Shown: piece after piece, positions 1 to 63,593 of the stretch
Layout: each line of letters opens with the position of its first letter
Position numbering within the stretch: position 1 is the stretch's first letter
Assembly: GCA_017993835.1 (NCBI GenBank)
Contig: JAGOLX010000013.1
Location: forward strand, 1-64,000
Reading direction: 5' to 3'
Length of the DNA: 64,000 nt
Origin: Phycisphaerae bacterium
GTDB taxonomy: Bacteria; Planctomycetota; Phycisphaerae; Sedimentisphaerales; Anaerobacaceae
The notes under the pieces: generated by a model
Told to the model about the DNA's origin: nothing
Databases searched by the model: none
What the model saw: the letters and a program-made list of their open reading frames with translations, nothing else
Made by a program: the position numbers and the translations under genes

Positions 1-600
1 GCTCAGACCAACCTGGGGGACTGCTACTATCATGGCCGGGGAGTGGATCAGGACTACCAGGAGGCGGTCAGGTGGTACCGCAAGGCAGCCGAACAGGGCC
101 ATGCATGGGCTCAGACCAATCTGGGGGACTGCTACTATCATGGCCGGGGAGTGAATCAGGACTGCCAGGAGGCGGTCAAGTGGTACCGCAAGGCAGCCGA
201 ACAGGGACATGCATGGGCTCAGACCAACCTGGGGGACTGCTACTATCATGGCCGGGGAGTGGATCAGGACTACCAGGAGGCGGTCAGGTGGTACCGCAAG
301 GCAGCCGAACAGGGACATGCATGGGCTCAGACCAATCTGGGGGACTGCTACTATCATGGCCGGGGAGTGAATCAGGACTGCCAGGAGGCGGTCAAGTGGT
401 ACCGCAAGGCAGCCGAACAGGGACATGCATGGGCTCAGACCAACCTGGGGGACTGCTACTATCATGGCCGGGGAGTGGATCAGGACTACCAGGAGGCGGT
501 CAAGTGGTACCGCGAGGCAGCTGAGCAGGGACACGCATGGGCTCAGACCAACCTCGGTGACTGTTATCGTCGCGGTCATGGTGTTGTCCAGGACTGCCAG
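1..600 (+). repeat. 108-bp tandem repeat with 216-bp higher-order period
   Basis: Blocks starting at 1, 109, 217, 325 and 433 begin with the same GCTCAGACCAA word and are almost identical over 108 bp. Odd and even blocks differ at the same sites (GTGGATCAGGACTACC against GTGAATCAGGACTGCC), so the real duplication unit is a 216-bp dimer. The repeat stays in frame and encodes the Sel1 units. Confidence 0.9.
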
Positions 601-636
601 GAGGCGGACAAGTGGTACCGCAAAGCTGTCGATTAA
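1..636 (+). CDS. Sel1-like repeat protein, 5' end outside window
   Basis: The reading frame is open from the first base, so the true start lies upstream; a GTG at 43 is only an internal codon of the repeat. The protein is a run of 36-residue Sel1 repeats with the family signature (A-Q-x-x-L-G-x-x-Y, then G-R-G-V, then E-A-V-x-W-Y-R-x-A-A-E-Q-G). About five and a half units are visible, and the last one is degenerate (YRRGHGVVQD) before the TAA. Units alternate between a DQDYQEAV form and an NQDCQEAV form. Sel1 repeats fold as alpha-solenoids and usually act as protein-protein scaffolds or secreted interaction proteins; no catalytic domain is visible here. The function is unknown. Repeat identity is high enough that assembly collapse or expansion is possible. 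Confidence 0.85.
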   Translation, partial: AQTNLGDCYYHGRGVDQDYQEAVRWYRKAAEQGHAWAQTNLGDCYYHGRGVNQDCQEAVKWYRKAAEQGHAWAQTNLGDCYYHGRGVDQDYQEAVRWYRKAAEQGHAWAQTNLGDCYYHGRGVNQDCQEAVKWYRKAAEQGHAWAQTNLGDCYYHGRGVDQDYQEAVKWYREAAEQGHAWAQTNLGDCYRRGHGVVQDCQEADKWYRKAVD

Positions 637-1471: not shown

Positions 1472-1998
1472 GGAGGTATCCGTGTCTTCCTGGACGATGC
1501 GGTGGAAAGTGGTTTTCGGGGGATCGAGCATGATTCCTACGAGCAGATGGAGAAGGGACATGGCCGGCTGGAGACCTGCATGTGTCGGACGACTCAGCAG
1601 ATTGCCTGGCTCCGTGAACGCCACGAGTGGGCGGGGTTGCAGAGTATCGCGGTGGTGGACAGTCGCTGCCAGATCGGGGAGCAGGTCGGCACAGAACGGC
1701 GGTATTTCATCAGCAGCTTGCCGGGACACACGGCCCAACGGATAGGCCAGGCGGTGCGGAATCACTGGTGCGTGGAGAATGAACTGCACTGGTCGCTGGA
1801 CCTGTGTTTCGCGGAGGACCAGAGCCGTGCCCGGATCGGCAATGCCGCGGAGAATCTGTCCCGAGTCCGTCGGCTGGCCTTGACGCTGTTGAAACAGGAA
1901 ACGACCGCGAAGGTCGGGATCAAGGCCAAACGACTCCTCGCCGGCTGGGACGAAAAATACCTCCTCCGAGTCCTCCGAGTTTAGATGCGTTTGCCCTG
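1472..1998 (+). pseudogene. ISAs1-family transposase, C-terminal remnant
   Basis: The reading frame from about 1472 to the TAG at 1982-1984 encodes the C-terminal part of an ISAs1-type DDE transposase. It shows the H-G-R-x-E-T segment, the NHWCVENELHWSLD block, EDQSR, and the NAAENLSRVRRLAL block typical of the family. The N-terminal two thirds, with the first catalytic residues, are missing. The sequence TTAGATGCGTTTGCCCTG directly at the stop (1981-1998) looks like the conserved outer end of these elements, so the right end of the IS survives while the left is lost. Confidence 0.8.
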
Positions 1999-2033
1999 GG
2001 ACATTATTGTATCTGACAACGCTTATATCAATC

Positions 2034-2062
2034 TTGACACGTTCGGAGAAGTATTGTATGAA
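2034..2062 (+). promoter_or_regulatory. Candidate sigma-70-type promoter for the radical SAM gene
   Basis: TTGACA (2034-2039), a 17-bp spacer, then TATGAA (2057-2062). The -35 box is perfect and the -10 box matches TATAAT at 4 of 6 positions. It sits about 80 bp before the ATG at 2145, downstream of the ISAs1 end. Confidence 0.5.
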
Positions 2063-2144
2063 CAAGTCTCAACATATTCGAACATGGCTGTGAAATAAGA
2101 GCAGGTGTGAGCAATGGACTGATTAGGCACACTTAGACAACGGC

Positions 2145-3488
2145 ATGAGCGATTCAGAGCCTATACACTACAAGAAATCATCCGAACAACCAGGTCCGTC
2201 TCGGAAGTTTCGCACGGATGTAGCTCGCGGACTTTACCATAGCCTGACATCCCACATCAAATTGGAGGTGCAATCTGCCTCCGATAGCCTACGCGAACTT
2301 GTCCTTCACATCAGTGAAGGCTGTAATATGAGGTGCGCCTACTGTTTTGCTGATAAAGGCCACTATGGACGAACCATAGCACGTTTCATGTCACCACAGA
2401 CAGCGACCCAATGTATCGATCATATTGTTGACACATACCGGCGCATTGAGAAGGTTAAGATTATTGGTGGTGAACCTCTGTTGAACTGCAACACCCTTCA
2501 GTCTGCCTTGGATGCTCTACGCCAGGTTGTAAGTGATGGCAGGCTTGAGTCAATGCCTAAAATCATCCTGAACACGAATTTGACTGTTGGGGTCAATAGG
2601 CTGTCCAGCCTGCTTAGAGATTATCCCATGGCGATAACTGTCAGCCTTGATGGCCCCGAATACATTCACGATGAGTTCCGTCGCTTTAGTAACGGCAAAG
2701 GATCTTTTCAGATCGTCGATTCCAATATCCGGTCGCTTCTATCAACGACCGGCCAGCGTATCCTCCTTGAAGTGGTCTATCACCCTAACCACCTTGAGTA
2801 TGGATTCGCCATGCCTGATGTGCACAGTTTCCTAGAAGAGCGTTATGGGAGTGTAGATGTATTCCTGCATCCTGTTAGCGGGGGGAAGGCATCATTTAAG
2901 GGGGCTGACCATCAACCAACACCCGATTCGTGGCACCGTTACACCACACAGATGTTTGAACTGTCCCAAAGTTATGGTCGCTTTCTCGTCCAGGACGCAA
3001 TCAACAGCAACCAACTGGACCACTTGATAAACCTGTTTATTGATTTGATGTACTGCAAGCGTAATGACGCACACTGTGACGTAGCCGTTAAAAGCCTGAC
3101 GATCAGTGCAAGAGGAACGGTTTATCCCTGCTATATCTTCAGTGGTCTAAAGGATTTCGTCATGGCGCACAACTGCACGCCTGAGCAACTTGCATCAGAT
3201 CGATTCTCAAGCGTACAGCAGCGGTTTATCGCCAATACTAAATCGGGGAACCCCACGTGTGCTCAGTGCGATCTTCTGAAAACGTGCCACAACTGTCCCG
3301 GAGAAATGCTACGCAGAATGGGCGCACTTAACACGGTGCAACCGATCATCTGCGATTTCAGGCTGGGATATGCAGAAGGGCTTATGCTTGGCTTGCACAG
3401 ATTGTTGGCGGACCGCCGACTGGGATATCTTCTCCTGTCTTACCTTAACAACTGGAATCATCGTTTGGCATCGAGTGCCGAAGAGTAG
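2145..3488 (+). CDS. Radical SAM/SPASM protein, probable peptide maturase
   Basis: A 447-residue radical SAM enzyme. The Cys motif CNMRCAYC (Cys60, 64, 67) binds the SAM-cleaving 4Fe-4S cluster, and KIIGGEP follows at about residue 104. The C-terminal third has a SPASM-type auxiliary cluster set: C-D-V-A-V...G-T-V-Y-P-C, then CAQCDLLKTCHNC, then IIC. SPASM enzymes mostly modify ribosomal peptides or activate sulfatases. No sulfatase is nearby, but a 72-residue peptide gene lies 89 bp downstream on the same strand, which supports a RiPP-maturase role (inference). The base composition looks AT-richer than the flagellar genes, and IS remnants flank the pair, suggesting transfer. The ribosome-binding site before ATG 2145 is weak. 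Confidence 0.85.
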   Translation: MSDSEPIHYKKSSEQPGPSRKFRTDVARGLYHSLTSHIKLEVQSASDSLRELVLHISEGCNMRCAYCFADKGHYGRTIARFMSPQTATQCIDHIVDTYRRIEKVKIIGGEPLLNCNTLQSALDALRQVVSDGRLESMPKIILNTNLTVGVNRLSSLLRDYPMAITVSLDGPEYIHDEFRRFSNGKGSFQIVDSNIRSLLSTTGQRILLEVVYHPNHLEYGFAMPDVHSFLEERYGSVDVFLHPVSGGKASFKGADHQPTPDSWHRYTTQMFELSQSYGRFLVQDAINSNQLDHLINLFIDLMYCKRNDAHCDVAVKSLTISARGTVYPCYIFSGLKDFVMAHNCTPEQLASDRFSSVQQRFIANTKSGNPTCAQCDLLKTCHNCPGEMLRRMGALNTVQPIICDFRLGYAEGLMLGLHRLLADRRLGYLLLSYLNNWNHRLASSAEE

Positions 3489-3577
3489 ATATGGATGAGA
3501 GATCTTGGCTGTAACCGAAAGGTCCTCTGTGATATGAGGTGGAGTATATTCCAATTAATTCAGATTAGGAGTTGCGT

Positions 3578-3796
3578 ATGTTAGCGGACAACTCGAAGGG
3601 TAATAAGAAGATAGGGTCAATGACCCCGGAAGAATTGAAGGAATTGGCTGATACATTGGCCGATCCGAACCTCACCCACGTGCAGAAGGTAGCCATCCTC
3701 CAAAGGCTTCTACTCACCGATTGCTTCAATAGAATCCCGAAGCCTCGAAAAGACTATGAATCACACGGCGGAGGTATGCTCGCAGGCCCTTTTTAG
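3578..3796 (+). CDS. 72-residue peptide, candidate RiPP precursor
   Basis: The ATG at 3578 has a good AGGAG (3567-3571) six bases upstream; a TTG at 3572 would overlap that site and is rejected. The product starts with a polar segment, then has an acidic helix-like part (MTPEELKELADTLADPNL) and an amphipathic part ending in LLLTDCF. It finishes with a basic, proline-rich linker (IPKPRKDYES) and the glycine-rich tail HGGGMLAGPF. A conserved-looking leader followed by a short Gly-rich C-terminus is how many radical SAM-modified precursors look. It follows the SPASM enzyme with no other gene between. I recognise no named precursor family. Alternatives are a small regulatory protein or an enzyme subunit. 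Confidence 0.6.
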   Translation: MLADNSKGNKKIGSMTPEELKELADTLADPNLTHVQKVAILQRLLLTDCFNRIPKPRKDYESHGGGMLAGPF

Positions 3797-3821
3797 GAGG
3801 CTTTGCTCCACTAGTGTTCCA

Positions 3822-4157
3822 TTACTCCTCAAGTAAGGGATAGAGCCTCTTGAGCTTTGTTCTGGCATCTGCCGTGGTGAACTGCCAGTTGACTTTCACC
3901 TTGGCAGTGTCACGACGTTTCTCCCAGATGCGCGTCTGTCGCCGCAGGGCCTCGATGTTGTCGATGCGTTGCGACAGGCACTGCCGGCTCAGGATGCCCA
4001 ATTCGATCTCCGCCATGTCCAGCCAAGCACACGACCGGGCGCTGGGGATCATACGGCCGCTTGTACACCTCCAGCACGTCCTCCATCTTCCAGACAAACT
4101 CGGCATTGGCCTGCGGCGGAATGCACCACTGCTTGCTCAACCAAGGCTTGATCTGGT
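3822..4157 (-). pseudogene. IS630-family transposase remnant with internal deletion and frameshift
   Basis: On the minus strand the frame from 4157 reads KPWLSKQWCIPP and then MEDVLEVYKRPYDPQRPVVC. The downstream half, in another frame, reads WLDMAEIELGILSRQCL and VNWQFTTADARTKLKRLYP, ending at TAA 3822. Both blocks are typical of IS630/Tc1 DDE transposases, but in intact enzymes they are separated by roughly 120 residues that are absent here. The 5' end stops at the edge of the IS256 element. The gene is therefore a double-truncated scrap. Confidence 0.75.
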
Positions 4158-5569
4158 AGTGTCAAGGATCTTTCGCTTTTTTGCGTATCCTCCGGAGAGG
4201 GACACCGCTGCCTGACCCATGGGTCAGGCGATTTTTTTATCGGCCGTTGGCGACTCGGCCTCCTGCATCTCCTTGAGCCGGTTCATGTCCATGTACCGCC
4301 GCGTGCCCCACCGACTGCCCGAGACATATCGCAGCCGGGCCGCCGCCAGCATCAACGCCGAACGCCCATCCGGGAACGAACCCACCACCCGCGTGCGACG
4401 ACGAATCTCCCGCATGATCCGCTCCAGCATGTTGTTCGTGCGGATCTGCCGATGGTGTTCGCGGGGGAAGCGATAGTACGTCAGCGTCTCGGACACGCTC
4501 TCAGCGACCTTCTGGGCCGCCTTCTTGAGCTTCATCGACTGGAGCTTCTCCACCACGGCCGTGGCCTTGGCCTGGGCGGCGGCCGCATCCTCCTGGGCGT
4601 GGATCGCCTTGAGCATTGCCGCGACCTCTTTGATCTTGGTGCTCGGAACATCACTGAAGATGTTGCGATACCAGTGCACCACACATCGCTGCCAGCGAGC
4701 TTCGGGATAAAACTCCGTCGCCGCTTCCACCAGGCCCAGGCACCTGTCCGAGACGATCAGTTGCACACCGGTCAGGCCGCGGCCCTTCAGATGCGTCAAG
4801 AACTGCCGCCAGCTCTCAGTGTCTTCCTTCGGGCCTTCCACCACGCCCAGGATGTCCCGAAAGCCATCGGTCCCGATTCCTACCGCTACCAGGACCGAGA
4901 CGTTGCGCACCTCTCCGGCCCAACTGCGCTTCAGGCAGATCCCATCCAGATAGACGTAAGGGTACTGGCCGACGATCGGGGCGTTGCGCCATTGCTCGAT
5001 GCGATCATACAGCTTCTGGTTCAGATCGCTCACCGTGCCGGCGCTGACCCGCATGCCCCACAGCGCTTCCGTGATATCCTCCACGCGTCGCACCGAGACA
5101 CCCGCCAGGTACATCTCCATCAAGGCCTCTTCCACCGAGGATTCCCGCCGACGGTACCGCTCGATGATCGCCGTCTCGAACTTGCTCTGTCGCAGCTTCG
5201 GGACCTTCAGCTCCACCTCGCCGGCCTGCGTCTGCAACTTACGCTGGTAGAAGCCGGCACGGCAATCCTTCCGCGCCTCGGTGCGTTCGTACCGCTGGGC
5301 ATTGCACAGGGCCTCGGCCTCCGTGTCCAGCATCTCGTTGAGCGTCTCCTGCACGGTCTTGCGAACCAGGTCGTTCAAATGACCGCTGACCTTCGCCTCG
5401 TCGATCCGGATAATCTGACTCAAGTCCTGACGCTCCTGCACCGATGTACTGCTTTGTTCTACTGCCATCGTTAGGTCCTCCAAAAGGGTTATCCACAATT
5501 CCACAATCGTCCCTTCAGGAGGACCTCTTCATAGTCCGATACAAATAAGCGAAAGAAATCCTACGTCAT
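4157..5569 (-). mobile_element. IS256-family insertion sequence
   Basis: An element of about 1.4 kb around one transposase gene. The left end (TAGTGTCAAGGATCTTTCGC at about 4157) and the reverse complement of the right end (GATGACGTAGGATTTCTTTC at about 5569) share the GGAT-TTTCGCTT core and look like imperfect terminal inverted repeats. The left flank is an IS630 scrap and the right flank is a different transposase scrap, so the element sits between two older IS fragments. The exact ends and any target duplication could not be fixed by eye. Confidence 0.75.
4224..5468 (-). CDS. IS256-family (Mutator-like) transposase
   Basis: A full-length transposase of about 414 residues, usual for the family. 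The start ATG at 5468 (MAVEQSSTS) is chosen because GGAGG lies seven bases upstream; an upstream in-frame codon at 5504 has no such site. It shows the Mutator DDE pattern: YVYLDGICLKR with the first Asp, LIVSDRCLGLVEA and ARWQRCVVHWYRN around the second Asp and the conserved Cys-His, and the RTNNMLERIMREIRRR block containing the catalytic Glu. No frameshift is visible, so this is the only transposase gene in the window that looks complete and possibly active. Confidence 0.92.
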   Translation of the reverse strand: MAVEQSSTSVQERQDLSQIIRIDEAKVSGHLNDLVRKTVQETLNEMLDTEAEALCNAQRYERTEARKDCRAGFYQRKLQTQAGEVELKVPKLRQSKFETAIIERYRRRESSVEEALMEMYLAGVSVRRVEDITEALWGMRVSAGTVSDLNQKLYDRIEQWRNAPIVGQYPYVYLDGICLKRSWAGEVRNVSVLVAVGIGTDGFRDILGVVEGPKEDTESWRQFLTHLKGRGLTGVQLIVSDRCLGLVEAATEFYPEARWQRCVVHWYRNIFSDVPSTKIKEVAAMLKAIHAQEDAAAAQAKATAVVEKLQSMKLKKAAQKVAESVSETLTYYRFPREHHRQIRTNNMLERIMREIRRRTRVVGSFPDGRSALMLAAARLRYVSGSRWGTRRYMDMNRLKEMQEAESPTADKKIA

Positions 5570-5831: not shown

Positions 5832-6026
5832 TCATTCATGGCATTGTCGAAGGATGCGGCGAACATGGTCGCGAAGGGCAAGCACTTTTTGATTATTTCC
5901 CGTCAACTCACAGGCCCGATCAAGTTGCTTCAGGAGTTCACTAACTAGCTCTGGAGTGACCGAATTCTGGACGCTGTCGAGTATTCTCACGACGGAGCCG
6001 ACAATCTCGAATCCATCACGCTTCAT
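5832..6026 (-). CDS. Small hypothetical protein, 64 residues
   Basis: Its ATG overlaps the TGA of the upstream methyltransferase gene by four bases (positions 6023-6026), which is strong evidence of translational coupling and of a real gene. The product is mostly helical by composition (LVSELLKQLDRACEL, KVLALRDHVRRILRQ) with no recognised domain, no signal peptide and no membrane segment. The function is unknown; it may be a partner of the methyltransferase. Confidence 0.55.
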   Translation of the reverse strand: MKRDGFEIVGSVVRILDSVQNSVTPELVSELLKQLDRACELTGNNQKVLALRDHVRRILRQCHE

Positions 6027-8510: not shown

Positions 8511-10388
8511 TTATAACAGTAGAAGTATGATTAGAAAGACAACAGCAGCACCTAGGATCACAAGCCACCACCATTCAGGTCCATCTGGCTGCGAGCGGTG
8601 GGGAGAGCCCGAAAGACCACGAAACCCTTGGTCAGCCAACATATCATCCATATAGAACAGGATAGATGGCTGTTGCCCCAAAGCTCTATATAGTAACTGT
8701 CTCGCTGCTGGCGCAGTTCGCACGACATATCTCAACAGTGACGAGAACCTCTGAGGGGCTACTCTCGGGAGTCTTAGGATCTCAGAAAGTGCAGAGCCTA
8801 ATTGTGGGCGCGTCCGGGCGGCGGAACCAATCCGTGCACCACGAGGCACGGTCGTCATTCTCTCCCACACTTGTGTTCCATATTTCCAGAATCGAGAGTT
8901 GTCTCTTTCGACGCGACGTCTAGCATCTCGGGCTATTATGTGGATCTCGCGTTCGCTAACTGAGGGTATAGCCCGCAAACGCTGGGCCATATCGTAGAGA
9001 TGGTTGACTGTATTCTGATTTAGGTTATGGATGAAGACATCAACATCAGATAGAAGCCCATCCGGGATACTGTCAGGATAGAACCGACTTAGGATTCGCT
9101 TGCCATAATCAAGTTGCATAGCCAATTCGTTCAATCTTCTGTTTCCAAAATTCCTCTCAAAAAAGGACTCTGCGACGATCTCGAAGAACGCTTGCGTAAG
9201 TGGATCCGACATTCTGTAGTCATATGAAAGGTAATCGCCCTCCAGACGGTTTGTTTCCGACAATTGACGTTCAAGGGTCGTTCCTTGATAAACCTCTGTC
9301 CGGGAGAAATTCATTGGAATGGCGAGAAATCGTTCGATCAGCTTAAGCGTTTGTAAAACCTCGTGAAGTGTAGTATCTGGATTGAACATCAGTATATTGT
9401 AGGTAATGTGGATGGCATAGTGCTGCAGGATTTCCAAGGCCCGTATGTTGGTATCTACTGTCGTTCCCTTACCTAACTGCTGAAGAGCGGAGTCTGCAAA
9501 AGACTCTATCCCAAGAAAGACACGGATAAGGCCCATCTCCATCAGTATGTCGAAAACATCCTTGTTGACACAATCTGAACGACACTTAACTGCGATAGCA
9601 ATGTCATCAAGACCTGATTTTCTGAATTCCGAATGAAGTTCTTTTAGGTACTGTGAATTGAAGTCACGGTTTGGGCCAAGGAAGTTGTCATCAATAAAAT
9701 AGAACACTCGTGCGCCATGTACGTGGTACAAGTATGAGATCTCCGCAGCGATGTTCAATGGGCTGCGACGGCGCATCGCCGGAGCTTTGATGTCCTTGAG
9801 CCATACGTGGATACTGCAGAAATGGCAATTCGCCCAGCAACCGCGAGAAGACAGGATATTTGATTCCCGAACGCCAAGAAAAGTCCGTGGAGGAAGCTGA
9901 TGGTCGGGAAATGGAAGGGAATCTAAATCTATAACAGTGGGGCGTGGAGGGGTATCCATACTGCCTGAAGCCATGCGCAGGCAAATCCCTTTTACGACTT
10001 TAGGACACTCCAGATTGTCTGCCAAGTCGGCTATGGTAAGTTCTCCCTCGCCATAAACGACGCTGTCAAGAGCGCAACAATCCCTTAACAGCCTGTGCGA
10101 GTTGAAATGTGCAAAGAATCCGCCGGCAGTAATGTGCCCACGGTATCCTTTCTGACGAAGGCGATGAGCAAGATCAATGTATTCGCTCGCTCGATGGCTA
10201 AATATCATTGAAAGACCAATCAGGTCGGGCTTAAGAGATAGCGTTTGCCTCGCCACCCTCTCGATCTGTGAACGCGAATCGAACGAGATGATCTCTGTCG
10301 TGTGACCGTTTCTGCGAATGAGAGGAGTCAAGTATCTCAGTGAGAGGCTATCCGTCAATTCCATGCCGACTAAGATTACATTGGCCAT
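8511..10388 (-). CDS. Cobalamin-type radical SAM protein with C-terminal membrane tail
   Basis: About 625 residues from ATG 10388 (MANVILVGMEL), preferred over a start at 10439 because GGGAGA precedes it. The first 150 residues have the B12-binding-like fold (KPDLIGLSMIF, ITAGGFFAHF, VVYGEGE), without the DxHxxG motif. The radical SAM Cys motif CWANCHFC follows (Cys184, 188, 191), then YFIDDNFLG and VFLGIESF, typical of the family. The C-terminus ends in an aromatic-hydrophobic segment (WWWLVILGAAVVFLI plus five residues) that should anchor it in the membrane, unusual for this family. The gene lies 58 bp after the Cys-rich gene. The substrate is unknown, and composition and IS context suggest acquisition. 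Confidence 0.82.
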   Translation of the reverse strand: MANVILVGMELTDSLSLRYLTPLIRRNGHTTEIISFDSRSQIERVARQTLSLKPDLIGLSMIFSHRASEYIDLAHRLRQKGYRGHITAGGFFAHFNSHRLLRDCCALDSVVYGEGELTIADLADNLECPKVVKGICLRMASGSMDTPPRPTVIDLDSLPFPDHQLPPRTFLGVRESNILSSRGCWANCHFCSIHVWLKDIKAPAMRRRSPLNIAAEISYLYHVHGARVFYFIDDNFLGPNRDFNSQYLKELHSEFRKSGLDDIAIAVKCRSDCVNKDVFDILMEMGLIRVFLGIESFADSALQQLGKGTTVDTNIRALEILQHYAIHITYNILMFNPDTTLHEVLQTLKLIERFLAIPMNFSRTEVYQGTTLERQLSETNRLEGDYLSYDYRMSDPLTQAFFEIVAESFFERNFGNRRLNELAMQLDYGKRILSRFYPDSIPDGLLSDVDVFIHNLNQNTVNHLYDMAQRLRAIPSVSEREIHIIARDARRRVERDNSRFWKYGTQVWERMTTVPRGARIGSAARTRPQLGSALSEILRLPRVAPQRFSSLLRYVVRTAPAARQLLYRALGQQPSILFYMDDMLADQGFRGLSGSPHRSQPDGPEWWWLVILGAAVVFLIILLLL

Positions 10389-10445
10389 CGTGATTCGTCT
10401 CCCAAGATGTTTGCACCTACTCAGATATCTTACCCACAACCTTGG

Positions 10446-10970
10446 CTACCACAAGGGCCGCTTCAATGGGTCCCACATGTCCCAGACTCGCAAGAAGTAC
10501 CCTTTGTCAGCAGGTGTAAGTGAAGCCTTCAGAACAACACGTGTGGAGACCTTCTTTAGAAGGTCTTCTCCACCTTTTGTCCTCAGTTGGCCTGCGATCT
10601 CGCGCAGCCAGGGATCTGGTGTAGGCTCTGGCAGTAGAAAACACTCTCTTGGCTGCTCGGTCCACTCTTGAGACCTGCGGCAGACTACGCCGGTGATCTC
10701 ATCGATGAGTTCCTCAGGGATTCCGAGCACCTGTCTCGATGCCGCCTCTATGCACTGGGGACACGAATCGGAAATGCCACCGCCCATGAACGATATTGCC
10801 TCGCTCAACGGTGGCAGGCCGATGCACGATCCGTGCATGAGGCCCGACAAGCCACAGTCAAAACATCTGAAGTATACACCGGGATGGCGTCTGGTCATTC
10901 TGATGACTAGGCGGCCACAAATCAGGCAAACGCGCCTTCGTACGAGGGGTATTCTGGCGAGCCATTTCAT
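10446..10970 (-). CDS. Cys-rich hypothetical protein, possible zinc ribbon
   Basis: A 174-residue protein. An N-terminal pair CLICG and CFDCG, spaced by about 20 residues, looks like a zinc ribbon. A third CPQC and further single cysteines follow at SCIGL, VVC and REC. It lies directly upstream of the membrane-tailed radical SAM gene in the same direction, so it is probably cotranscribed and may deliver or hold a substrate (inference). No named family was recognised. Confidence 0.6.
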   Translation of the reverse strand: MKWLARIPLVRRRVCLICGRLVIRMTRRHPGVYFRCFDCGLSGLMHGSCIGLPPLSEAISFMGGGISDSCPQCIEAASRQVLGIPEELIDEITGVVCRRSQEWTEQPRECFLLPEPTPDPWLREIAGQLRTKGGEDLLKKVSTRVVLKASLTPADKGYFLRVWDMWDPLKRPLW

Positions 10971-60089: not shown

Positions 60090-61577
60090 TCACACACCTT
60101 TCGCCGTCGAGAGTCCCTGGTTGATCGGCCCCCCATTTCTCTTGCCCTGCGTCCGGCGTTCCTGGAGGTACTCGATATTGTGCTTGTAGCCCAGCTCCAG
60201 ATTGTCGAACACGTAGCAGATGTTCCGCAGGAAGAACTTGCCCAACTCCGTTGCCTCGATCCGGTCGTCGTGCACCGTCACGATCCCGTCGTCCACCAGC
60301 TCTGCAAGGGCCTCAGATTGCAATTCCCGATGGAAGTACTCCCTGAACCGAATGCCGTGCTTTCGCTCGAAGTACGCGTATTCGAGGCTGTAGTATGAGA
60401 GGATGCTGAACATCACGTCCCTTCGCAGCAGGTTGTCTTCGGACAGTTTGAATCCACGGATCGTGGGGAATCGCCCGGCGCGCAGCAAGCCGGCGTATTC
60501 CTGTAGATCGTAGCAGTTCTGAGAGTAGTATCTGTTGATTCGGCTCAGCGCCGATGGCCCGATCCCGAGCGTGTCGTGCGAGACGCCGGGAGTGTAGCCC
60601 ATGGTGTTGCGATGCAGTCTTCTGGCCCGGGCTGCGATAGCCAAGTCATCGGTATCCTTCGCATAGTGGTCCAGTCCGATCCGCGTCCATCCATTGGCCG
60701 TCAGGAATCGGCAGGCGTCGTACCACATCATCGTGCGATCGTATGGGTTCGGAAGATCGTCCTGGTGGATTAGTCTGTTGTGCGGGAACACGTCCGGCCT
60801 GTATCCCATGTTGCACACCGCCAGTCGGTCGGGAGAGATCTTCTTGGTCAGCTCCAGCGTGTGCAGGAATGACTCCCGTGTCTGTTTGGGCAGGCCGTAG
60901 ATGAGATCGAAATTCAGCCCCTTGAACAGCTTGCGGATATCGGGGTGCGACAACCGCTCGACAAGCTCGTACGGCTGCACGCGGTTGACCGCCTTCTGCA
61001 CCACGGGATCGAAGTCCTGGACCCCGAAGGAGATTCGGTTGATCCCGACCTCGTGGTAGAAGCGCATCATGTCTTCGTCCACGGTCCTGGGATCGATCTC
61101 GATGGCGAACTCGTCGAGCTCTTCCACCTGCACGATCTTCCTGAGGTGGGCGATTAATTCGACGAGGTCTTGTCGTTCGATCACCGAGGGCGAGCCGCCG
61201 CCCAAGTGTACCTCCTTGAAGGACACGTTGATGCGGTTGCGCTGGAAGGTCTCAGCGACCAGGTCGATTTCGTCATGGAGGCTCCGGAGCACCGCCTTTT
61301 TCTTATCGGAGTCTCTCGAAACGAGCGCGTAGCACTGGCAGTAGTAGCATTGGAAGTGACAGTACGGGAAGTGCACGTACAGCGACATGGGGTACCCTTG
61401 CTCCTTCACCTCGGCCAGGGAAGAAAGCACGTCGCGCGTCTGCTCGCTCGTGAAGGTCTCATCCCACACTCCCGTCGGCGGATACGCCGTGAAGTAGGAG
61501 GCGCGGATATCGTACTTGCCGATCAATTCCGGCGTCAGCTTCTCGAGGACTTCGTTATCTGCGGGTCTGTTGCTCAT
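60090..61577 (-). CDS. HemN-like radical SAM enzyme
   Basis: A 495-residue protein of the coproporphyrinogen III dehydrogenase superfamily. Cys73, 77, 80 and 82 (CHFQCYYCQC, the HemN-type C-x3-C-x2-C-x-C) bind the cluster, VHLGGGSPSV follows, and FDLIYGLPKQTRESFLHTLE and ATELGKFFLRNICYVFD match the HemN domains. The N-terminal FTAYPP replaces the usual Y-T-S-Y-P-T. It may be a real heme enzyme or a HemN-like enzyme recruited to modification. It is 12 bp downstream of the cobalamin-type radical SAM gene and 59 bp before the giant transferase, so one operon is likely. Confidence 0.8.
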   Translation of the reverse strand: MSNRPADNEVLEKLTPELIGKYDIRASYFTAYPPTGVWDETFTSEQTRDVLSSLAEVKEQGYPMSLYVHFPYCHFQCYYCQCYALVSRDSDKKKAVLRSLHDEIDLVAETFQRNRINVSFKEVHLGGGSPSVIERQDLVELIAHLRKIVQVEELDEFAIEIDPRTVDEDMMRFYHEVGINRISFGVQDFDPVVQKAVNRVQPYELVERLSHPDIRKLFKGLNFDLIYGLPKQTRESFLHTLELTKKISPDRLAVCNMGYRPDVFPHNRLIHQDDLPNPYDRTMMWYDACRFLTANGWTRIGLDHYAKDTDDLAIAARARRLHRNTMGYTPGVSHDTLGIGPSALSRINRYYSQNCYDLQEYAGLLRAGRFPTIRGFKLSEDNLLRRDVMFSILSYYSLEYAYFERKHGIRFREYFHRELQSEALAELVDDGIVTVHDDRIEATELGKFFLRNICYVFDNLELGYKHNIEYLQERRTQGKRNGGPINQGLSTAKGV

Positions 61578-61589
61578 GGGTCACCCCAC

Positions 61590-63593
61590 CTATTCGGTCA
61601 TTCGTATGTTCACGGGAGGGAAGACCTTTCGGCCGTTCCCGTCGTACAGTTCGTTGAAGGGCGGAACGCCGCGTATCCGGAAGTGCGTTTCCAGGAACCG
61701 CTGCGCATCCCCCCCACAGGGGGTGTCGTCCCGGACGCGATACTCCATCGGGCGTTTCACCACCTCGCCGGCCGGCTCCAGGTTGAACGCCTCGGAGAAG
61801 TAGCCGACCCAATCATGCTCGAGCTTCACGCTCGTCTCTTGTTCCCGGTTGTTCGGATGGGCTAGGACCGCGTTCTGGAATACGAACAGGTCCGCCAACT
61901 CGGATTCGTCGAAGTCCACGCCGGACTCCCGAAGGAACGTCCGAACGGCGATCTGGAATTCCGCGTAGAAGTCCGCCTTGTGCATCAGCAACTCCAGGAA
62001 TACACCGTCGGGCGGATCGTACGGGATGCCGCCGTACCCCTCGGGCTCCAGCAGTTGGGAATGCCCCTTGTCCTGCACGTCTCTCGCGCACTTCGCCAGC
62101 TTCTCGAACACCCTGTGAATCAGAGGATACTCGTCCGGCGCCCTCGCGGATTCCCGTCGCATCCATACGACGAGGTCCGTGATTCGCACGCCGTGCTTGT
62201 TCTTGAGGTACCAGAAGACGAAGAACGCAAGCCGGTCGTCGTGCAGGCCGATCGTATAGTAGCCGTCGACGAACGCGTCGACCCACTTTGCAGGCGGCAT
62301 CGCCCCCGTCCCGATCACCACCTCCATGTTCTCCACGATCGCGGTGCTGACCTTGCTCTTGGTGTATTTGCCCTCCATCACCCTGCCCACGATGCCATAC
62401 TTTCGCCGGGATTCGCTGGAGGCAACCTGCGTGTTCGGAAACAGCAGAAACGGATAGGAATAGATCTGGTCGAACACGCTGCGGCTCATCAGCTCTTCCA
62501 GACCGGCCATGTAGGATTCGTATGTCTCCAGGGGCAGGCCCAGGATCAGCTCGATATAGGAGTAGAGAAACGCGTCGTGATAGGCCCTGCGGATGCGTTC
62601 GTAGAACTCCCGCTTGAAGTTGATTCGGTTCACCGCCCTCAGCGTGCTTTCGTTCAGGGATTGCAGCGCCAGCGTCACGCGGAAACCCACCCGGGCGTCT
62701 CGCAGAATGTCGGAGATCTTGAGCACCTTGTCCGAGGAGTTCTTCACCCAGCTCACGGAGACGAACTCGGGATATCCGTAGGTCCTTCTCGTCTGCGCCA
62801 GGTACTCCGCAATGGACACGTCTCGATTGCGGATGCCGAAATTGGAGTCGGACATGGCCACGTACTTGATCTTGTTCCTGCCGATCCAGTCGATCTCCGC
62901 CTTCACCTGTTCCAGGGGTTTCTCCCGAATGCCCCGGTGCGCCGTGTTGCCCCACGTGCAGAAAGAGCACTGGTTCGGGCACCCCCGATTGGTCTCCCAG
63001 ATGGTCCCGGAGAATTCACTCGCATACTGCCCGTAGATCGAGTCAAACGTCCCGTCCAGGTACGGCGACGGGAGCTGCTCGATCACGGGGAGCCTCTCCA
63101 CTCCGGTCCGACGAATCTCGCCGCTGGAACGATCGTGAATGATGATCCCCGGGATGTCCCCGAAGTCGCGTCCTTCCAGATGATGGCGGCACAGAGAGGC
63201 GAACACCTCTTCGCCCTCCCCGCAGCCGATGACGTCGATGAAGGGGTTCTTTCGGATGAATTCGGCCGAGAGATCGGGGTCCTTCGGAACGGACGGCCCG
63301 CCCAGCACGACCAAGGCATCGGGGAACCTCTCCCGCACGGCCCGGGCGGCGGCCATGCTCGCGTTCACATTCCACAGGAAGCACGAGAACCCAATGACCC
63401 AGACATCCTGGAGCCCGGCGGCAAACTCGGCCGGGTCGTGAGGCCGCCGAAACAAGATCTCGGGCAGATCAAAATGACGCGAGATCACGTCATCGACCCG
63501 CAGCCGTGAATAGAGCTGTCCTGCGGCCAACGGCAGAAGGTTGATGCTGGCGCCCGTGCCAAACTGAACTACGTATATCCTTGGTCTTGCCAT
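61590..63593 (-). CDS. Cobalamin-binding-type radical SAM protein
   Basis: A 667-residue protein. The N-terminal 180 residues are B12-binding-like (VWVIGFSCFLWNVNASMAAA, ALVVLGGPSVPKD, VIGCGEGEEVFASL). The radical SAM motif CPNQCSFC is at Cys205, 209 and 212, followed by YVAMSDSNFGI and FRVTLALQSLNESTL. The C-terminal 200 residues, with VFFVFWYLKN-type and YPLIHRVFEKLAK segments, are not assigned. Enzymes of this class methylate or rearrange small molecules, lipids or peptides; the substrate here is unknown. The cluster context suggests sugar or surface-component modification (inference). Confidence 0.85.
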   Translation of the reverse strand: MARPRIYVVQFGTGASINLLPLAAGQLYSRLRVDDVISRHFDLPEILFRRPHDPAEFAAGLQDVWVIGFSCFLWNVNASMAAARAVRERFPDALVVLGGPSVPKDPDLSAEFIRKNPFIDVIGCGEGEEVFASLCRHHLEGRDFGDIPGIIIHDRSSGEIRRTGVERLPVIEQLPSPYLDGTFDSIYGQYASEFSGTIWETNRGCPNQCSFCTWGNTAHRGIREKPLEQVKAEIDWIGRNKIKYVAMSDSNFGIRNRDVSIAEYLAQTRRTYGYPEFVSVSWVKNSSDKVLKISDILRDARVGFRVTLALQSLNESTLRAVNRINFKREFYERIRRAYHDAFLYSYIELILGLPLETYESYMAGLEELMSRSVFDQIYSYPFLLFPNTQVASSESRRKYGIVGRVMEGKYTKSKVSTAIVENMEVVIGTGAMPPAKWVDAFVDGYYTIGLHDDRLAFFVFWYLKNKHGVRITDLVVWMRRESARAPDEYPLIHRVFEKLAKCARDVQDKGHSQLLEPEGYGGIPYDPPDGVFLELLMHKADFYAEFQIAVRTFLRESGVDFDESELADLFVFQNAVLAHPNNREQETSVKLEHDWVGYFSEAFNLEPAGEVVKRPMEYRVRDDTPCGGDAQRFLETHFRIRGVPPFNELYDGNGRKVFPPVNIRMTE

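Follow-up and report, generated by a model that had tools for sequence, protein, structure and literature searches.

A radical SAM/SPASM enzyme gene and a neighbouring 72-residue peptide gene between insertion sequences in a Phycisphaerae genome: a candidate orphan RiPP pair

The window examined in the present study, a 64,000-nucleotide stretch from a Phycisphaerae bacterium, forms part of contig C52 in a genome assembly of 6.37 Mb. Two forward-strand genes lie near its start in a native fragment of 1.8 kb (positions 2002-3810) with a GC content of 48%, as compared to 59% for the window. The first (2145-3488) has an ATG start, an intact frame and a weak ribosome-binding site, and encodes a SPASM radical SAM enzyme of 447 aa. 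The second (3578-3796), also beginning with ATG, is a complete frame encoding a candidate precursor of 72 aa, or of 74 aa if translation begins at an alternative TTG start two codons upstream. The two genes each have a GC content of 49% and are separated by 89 bp, with an AGGAG ribosome-binding site (3567-3571, forward strand) located 6 nt before the ATG of the peptide gene. Both reading frames and the good ribosome-binding site agree with a preliminary description of this DNA, which had noted a SPASM-type gene followed at this distance by a peptide gene. No structured RNA was found around the gene pair.

The fragment is bounded on both sides by insertion sequences (IS). On its left is an IS remnant (1502-2001, forward strand), presumably ISAs1-like, whose conserved end, TTTAGATGCGTTTGCCCTGGGA, is common to two family members and stops at position 2001. 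On its right, an IS630-family remnant (3811-4222, reverse strand) has its left end, CTAG, at position 3811, and is followed by an IS256/Mutator-family transposase gene (4224-5504, reverse strand) with imperfect terminal repeats near 4168 and 5557. Seven IS630 copies at other locations within the genus and the family have the same left end (±2 bases), preceded by unrelated sequence. Since the stop codon of the peptide gene (3794-3796) lies outside this element, which begins 14 bp later, the C-terminal tail of the peptide is native, and a peptide truncated by the IS and carrying a transposon-derived tail is ruled out. No transporter or protease gene is present within the fragment, and the preliminary description, finding none adjacent, had concluded that processing would depend on genes located elsewhere. 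This over-reads the context; because IS elements bound the pair on both sides, its original neighbours may have been lost, genes that once followed the peptide gene, if any, are now cut off from it, and the absence of processing genes is uninformative.

The peptide ORF is unlikely to have arisen by chance, based on its ribosome-binding site, length and codon usage. Shuffling of the 323-nt region yielded an ORF this long (72 codons or more) preceded by a comparable ribosome-binding site in 0.065% of cases, and the codon usage of the peptide frame scored above 99.3% of shuffled versions of itself. One of the reverse frames across this stretch outscores the peptide frame, so codon usage by itself gives weak support.

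The enzyme passes the cut-off for the Pfam radical SAM family (PF04055; 41.6 versus 29.5 bits) and has a complete cluster motif, CX3CX2C, at residues 60-67, in which C60, C64 and C67 are invariant in an alignment of 61 relatives. Its score for the SPASM family falls just short (PF13186; 19.3 versus 21.5 bits). The earlier assignment as a SPASM-type enzyme is nevertheless right, as seven further cysteines (C311, C329, C372, C375, C381, C384 and C403) are invariant among the aligned relatives or conserved to at least 90%, and the predicted structure matches CteB over residues 24-421. A total of 79 NCBIfam families were listed for the enzyme, the best of which are almost all RiPP maturases; none was near its cut-off, and the enzyme fits no named family among them. 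The top family, for this enzyme and for all four of its closest tree neighbours described below, is the PapB ranthipeptide maturases (NF047865), to which it does not belong on score (127.6 versus 340 bits), and the 72-aa peptide, unlike the substrates of that family, is not Cys-rich.

The enzyme was modelled with AlphaFold2 on the 61-row alignment (mean pLDDT 79, pTM 0.82). The first 44 residues are predicted to be disordered, with the radical SAM core beginning at about residue 48. CteB is the first fold match (Z 34.9 over 353 residues), followed by ChlB with bound leader, anSME, TigE and SuiB, and the CteB and anSME matches extend through the SPASM part. Together with the sequence, the modelled fold supports placing the enzyme among the peptide-modifying SPASM maturases. 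No N-terminal RRE is apparent in the model and no discrete RRE gene occurs within the fragment; the domain is frequent in RiPP systems and not obligatory.

Comparison with known systems indicates likeness in overall architecture and differences in detail. CteB, the SCIFF ranthipeptide maturase (PDB 5wgg/5why), shares the radical SAM core and a SPASM part with two auxiliary clusters at 19% identity. It carries an N-terminal RRE (PMC8172795) and acts with a six-Cys precursor, whereas the present enzyme lacks an RRE in the model, its putative partner has one Cys, and its score places it outside the SCIFF maturases (TIGR03974; 92.6 versus 425 bits). ChlB (PDB 9gm3, 9gmc), a radical SAM enzyme of a RiPP system whose structures include the leader peptide, is 16-17% identical and aligns from its residue 3, indicating a similar extent with no large N-terminal domain. 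Streptosactin (GggA/GggB) resembles the present pair in combining a small precursor with a SPASM enzyme, at a GggB score of 93.7 versus a cut-off of 650 bits. Its Cys-Ser and Cys-Gly thioethers (PMC8172795) are impossible within the Cys-free tail of the present peptide. The Cys-to-alpha-carbon thioethers that sactipeptides carry in their core likewise could not form within this tail (residues 53-72), although Cys49 might provide a link.

In a single-sequence model the peptide forms two helices (residues 17-27 and 34-52; pLDDT near 90), followed by a disordered tail reading IPKPRKDYESHGGGMLAGPF and ending in HGGGMLAGPF. Its single Cys, Cys49, lies outside this tail. The N-terminal part had been described as acidic and helix-like; the helices are predicted and the first helix region (residues 15-32) is acidic, yet residues 1-52 as a whole are charge-balanced (seven acidic and seven basic residues) and the peptide is not acidic overall. 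Searches of Pfam, NCBIfam, PHROGs and PADLOC assigned it to no family, Nif11 and PqqA-like precursors included, in agreement with the earlier statement that the precursor family is not recognised, and a fold search with its model returned no match below E 2. No homologue was detected at other sites of the source genome, in 161 genomes of the order, 397 of the class or 255 of the phylum, on plasmids, phages or viral contigs, nor among the ORFs of 275 loci. Weaker candidate matches were rejected. A 64-aa ORF in the window (5832-6026, reverse strand) gave a local score of 31 that was equalled in 4.5% of shuffles and exceeded by other window ORFs, a Sphingobium plasmid match (E 0.06) covers only a helical stretch within an AraC-type regulator, and hits from the class and the order with E values of 0.01-0.09 are portions of unrelated frames.

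No relative of the enzyme exceeding 31% identity over its length was found in the genome collection, the whole order, the phylum sample or the plasmids; the class sample was searched by profile. The nearest relatives are 22-31% identical, and in trees of 107 and 186 sequences the enzyme falls into a five-member clade with a support of 0.96-0.97; its branches are very long, and the grouping could possibly reflect long-branch attraction. Three of its four clade mates adjoin or cluster with candidate precursors, which are rich in Cys and Gly and differ from the 72-aa peptide. In the first (L151), a 206-aa ORF containing CGCGCGCGC lies 95 bp upstream of the enzyme gene (L151:6814-7434); the run is situated mid-protein, with about 75 residues after it. 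In the second (L154), a 107-aa ORF with CGCGG (internal GGIEECGCGGQGHHC) lies 121 bp downstream (L154:6190-6513); the last SPASM cysteines of the accompanying enzyme appear to be missing in the alignment. The third, 26% identical to the present enzyme, is encoded on a plasmid of Actinomyces oris (L137), in a likely complete RiPP cluster headed by an unannotated, GTG-initiated 34-aa ORF, MTLVERDDEIDLDELVQLEEDVSPATGGGCGAFC (L137:951-1055; NZ_CP116225.1, 150680-150781), and further comprising an ABC ATPase, a permease, a BtrH_N-like protein, the SPASM enzyme and an M50-like peptidase. The fourth, on a Methylocystis plasmid (L138), is surrounded by transposon genes, and no candidate precursor was seen at its locus. 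Overall, the clade resembles RiPP maturases with very varied substrates.

The A. oris cluster differs from the present fragment in its complete-looking set of transport and processing genes and in its peptide tail, TGGGCGAFC, which contains two Cys. Among 1707 small ORFs having a ribosome-binding site, 0.6% carry GGG within the last 12 residues, as both of these peptides do; GGG and a late Phe are the sole features common to the two tails, and we regard the resemblance as suggestive at most.

On balance, we consider it probable that the two genes represent a SPASM maturase and its precursor, orphaned when IS elements displaced the remaining genes of a RiPP locus that had been gained by horizontal transfer. 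This is the best reading because the enzyme class is indicated by sequence and predicted fold and because candidate precursors accompany three of the four nearest relatives. A small precursor-like gene lies beside the modifying enzyme, and we infer its role as substrate from that position. The proposal of a new RiPP system is thus supported in part, by the enzyme class and the candidate precursors of its relatives; recognition as a new system is unsupported on the side of the peptide: co-conservation of the pair was found in none of the collections searched. The preliminary description had proposed looking for peptide homologues beside related SPASM genes and had held that their absence would refute the system; none was found in the available data, though this outcome is tempered by the low identity of the nearest enzymes. 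Also against the pairing, the candidate precursors of the clade mates have several Cys, while the peptide has one, outside its tail.

If the pair functions in the manner of other SPASM maturases, which serve here as the model, the enzyme class being supported by sequence and the fold by prediction, the helical hairpin (about residues 15-52) would act as the leader, docking on the enzyme with no RRE domain involved. Cleavage of SAM by the radical SAM cluster would then give a 5'-deoxyadenosyl radical, which would abstract hydrogen from one of the residues in the disordered tail (53-72), and the two SPASM clusters would accept the electron. With the peptide as substrate and no RRE, the docking mode would be other than the RRE-dependent one; ThnB and similar sactipeptide enzymes require their RRE (PMC8172795). 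The tail, possibly with the single Cys or the Tyr, His or Met residues, had been put forward as the modified core. It may well be the core, and a thioether within it is excluded since it contains no Cys; the modification may instead be an epimerisation or a desaturation, a crosslink of C-C or C-O type to Tyr, His or Phe, or a link to Cys49. More speculatively, and in our estimation rather improbably, the enzyme would represent an unnamed RRE-less SPASM clade acting on short Gly-rich tails, in which the Cys-free HGGGMLAGPF receives a non-thioether modification, for example at Tyr, His, Met or Phe, under the direction of a helical-hairpin leader.

A less probable explanation, which still merits consideration, is that the enzyme matures a peptide or protein whose gene lay elsewhere or was lost to the IS elements, the 72-aa gene being unrelated or encoding an accessory small protein. 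The insertion sequences bounding the pair may have removed the true partner, the A. oris candidate precursor lies 3.8 kb from its enzyme gene rather than adjacent to it, and the peptide has no co-occurring homologue. Set against this are the shared strand, the 89-bp spacing, the good ribosome-binding site and the matched GC content, as well as the predicted helical part and disordered tail, which correspond to the usual precursor layout. We think it improbable that the enzyme matures a protein in the manner of sulfatase or quinohemoprotein maturases and takes part in no RiPP system. In favour of this reading, anSME ranks among the best structural matches (Z 27.7), both kinds of maturase receive weak NCBIfam scores, and some distant plasmid relatives adjoin halogenase-like, monooxygenase or ferritin-like genes. 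Against it, these scores are far below the cut-offs (TIGR03942 anaerobic sulfatase maturases, 84.5 versus 349.45 bits; quinohemoprotein, 101.7 versus 453 bits), enzymes of sulfatase-maturase length (380-390 aa) in related genomes are more distant in the tree, and the fragment holds no sulfatase or quinohemoprotein gene. Equally doubtful is the view that the fragment is mobile cargo in decay and has lost its function. In favour of this are the weak ribosome-binding site of the enzyme gene, the position of the fragment between IS remnants and its occurrence as a single copy absent from the rest of the genus and order; against it, both frames are fully open and every conserved enzyme cysteine is retained.

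A maturase and its precursor would be ordinary in kind, a plausible candidate for a well-known type of natural-product system, which is partly supported, with an enzyme that is not placed in detail. Lying in a pile of IS elements, the fragment may be decaying or silent. Should the peptide be modified, this SPASM clade, as yet unclassified, would gain a first substrate, and the Cys-free tail would allow the chemistry to be read directly. As it stands, the orphan pair is chiefly useful for directing attention to its clade in tractable hosts, for instance to the plasmid cluster of A. oris.

Several other loci were observed in the window and its relatives. At its start (43-636, forward strand), and cut by it, are Sel1-type repeats of about 36 aa, near-identical in DNA and in two alternating versions. 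B12-radical SAM and methyltransferase genes of low GC content lie at 5.8-11 kb and could conceivably be parts of the same cluster as the pair. Their GC content is similar and a relative of the same family has a loosely similar cluster; they lie on the opposite strand with IS elements between, and score under the RiPP-methyltransferase cut-offs. This stretch encodes a B12-binding radical SAM protein with a hydrophobic C-terminal tail (8511-10439, reverse strand) and an adjoining Cys-rich ORF of 174 aa (10446-10970, reverse strand) that matched neither a Pfam nor an NCBIfam family, nor any sequence on plasmids. The 64-aa ORF at 5832-6026 is helical, has a strong ribosome-binding site, overlaps the end of the methyltransferase gene and belongs to no family. 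In the relative (genome G093, L150:831-9354), the cluster encodes a 754-aa protein containing two tandem radical SAM/SPASM units, together with a sugar epimerase-like protein, a 182-aa lipoprotein-like ORF, a SPASM enzyme and two radical SAM proteins that bind B12. Four distant SPASM relatives on plasmids of Bradyrhizobium, Mycetohabitans and Rhizobium (L251, L252, L254 and L257) share a similar gene row, consisting of a large hypothetical gene, a second hypothetical gene, the radical SAM gene and a halogenase-like flavoprotein or monooxygenase gene. Near the far end of the window, from 60090 to 63593 and on to 78 kb of the contig (L153), several B12-binding and other radical SAM genes lie on one strand with genes for a thiamine-diphosphate enzyme and for HAD phosphatase-like, sugar isomerase-like and sugar-nucleotide dehydrogenase-like proteins, forming an unusual carbohydrate or small-molecule cluster.
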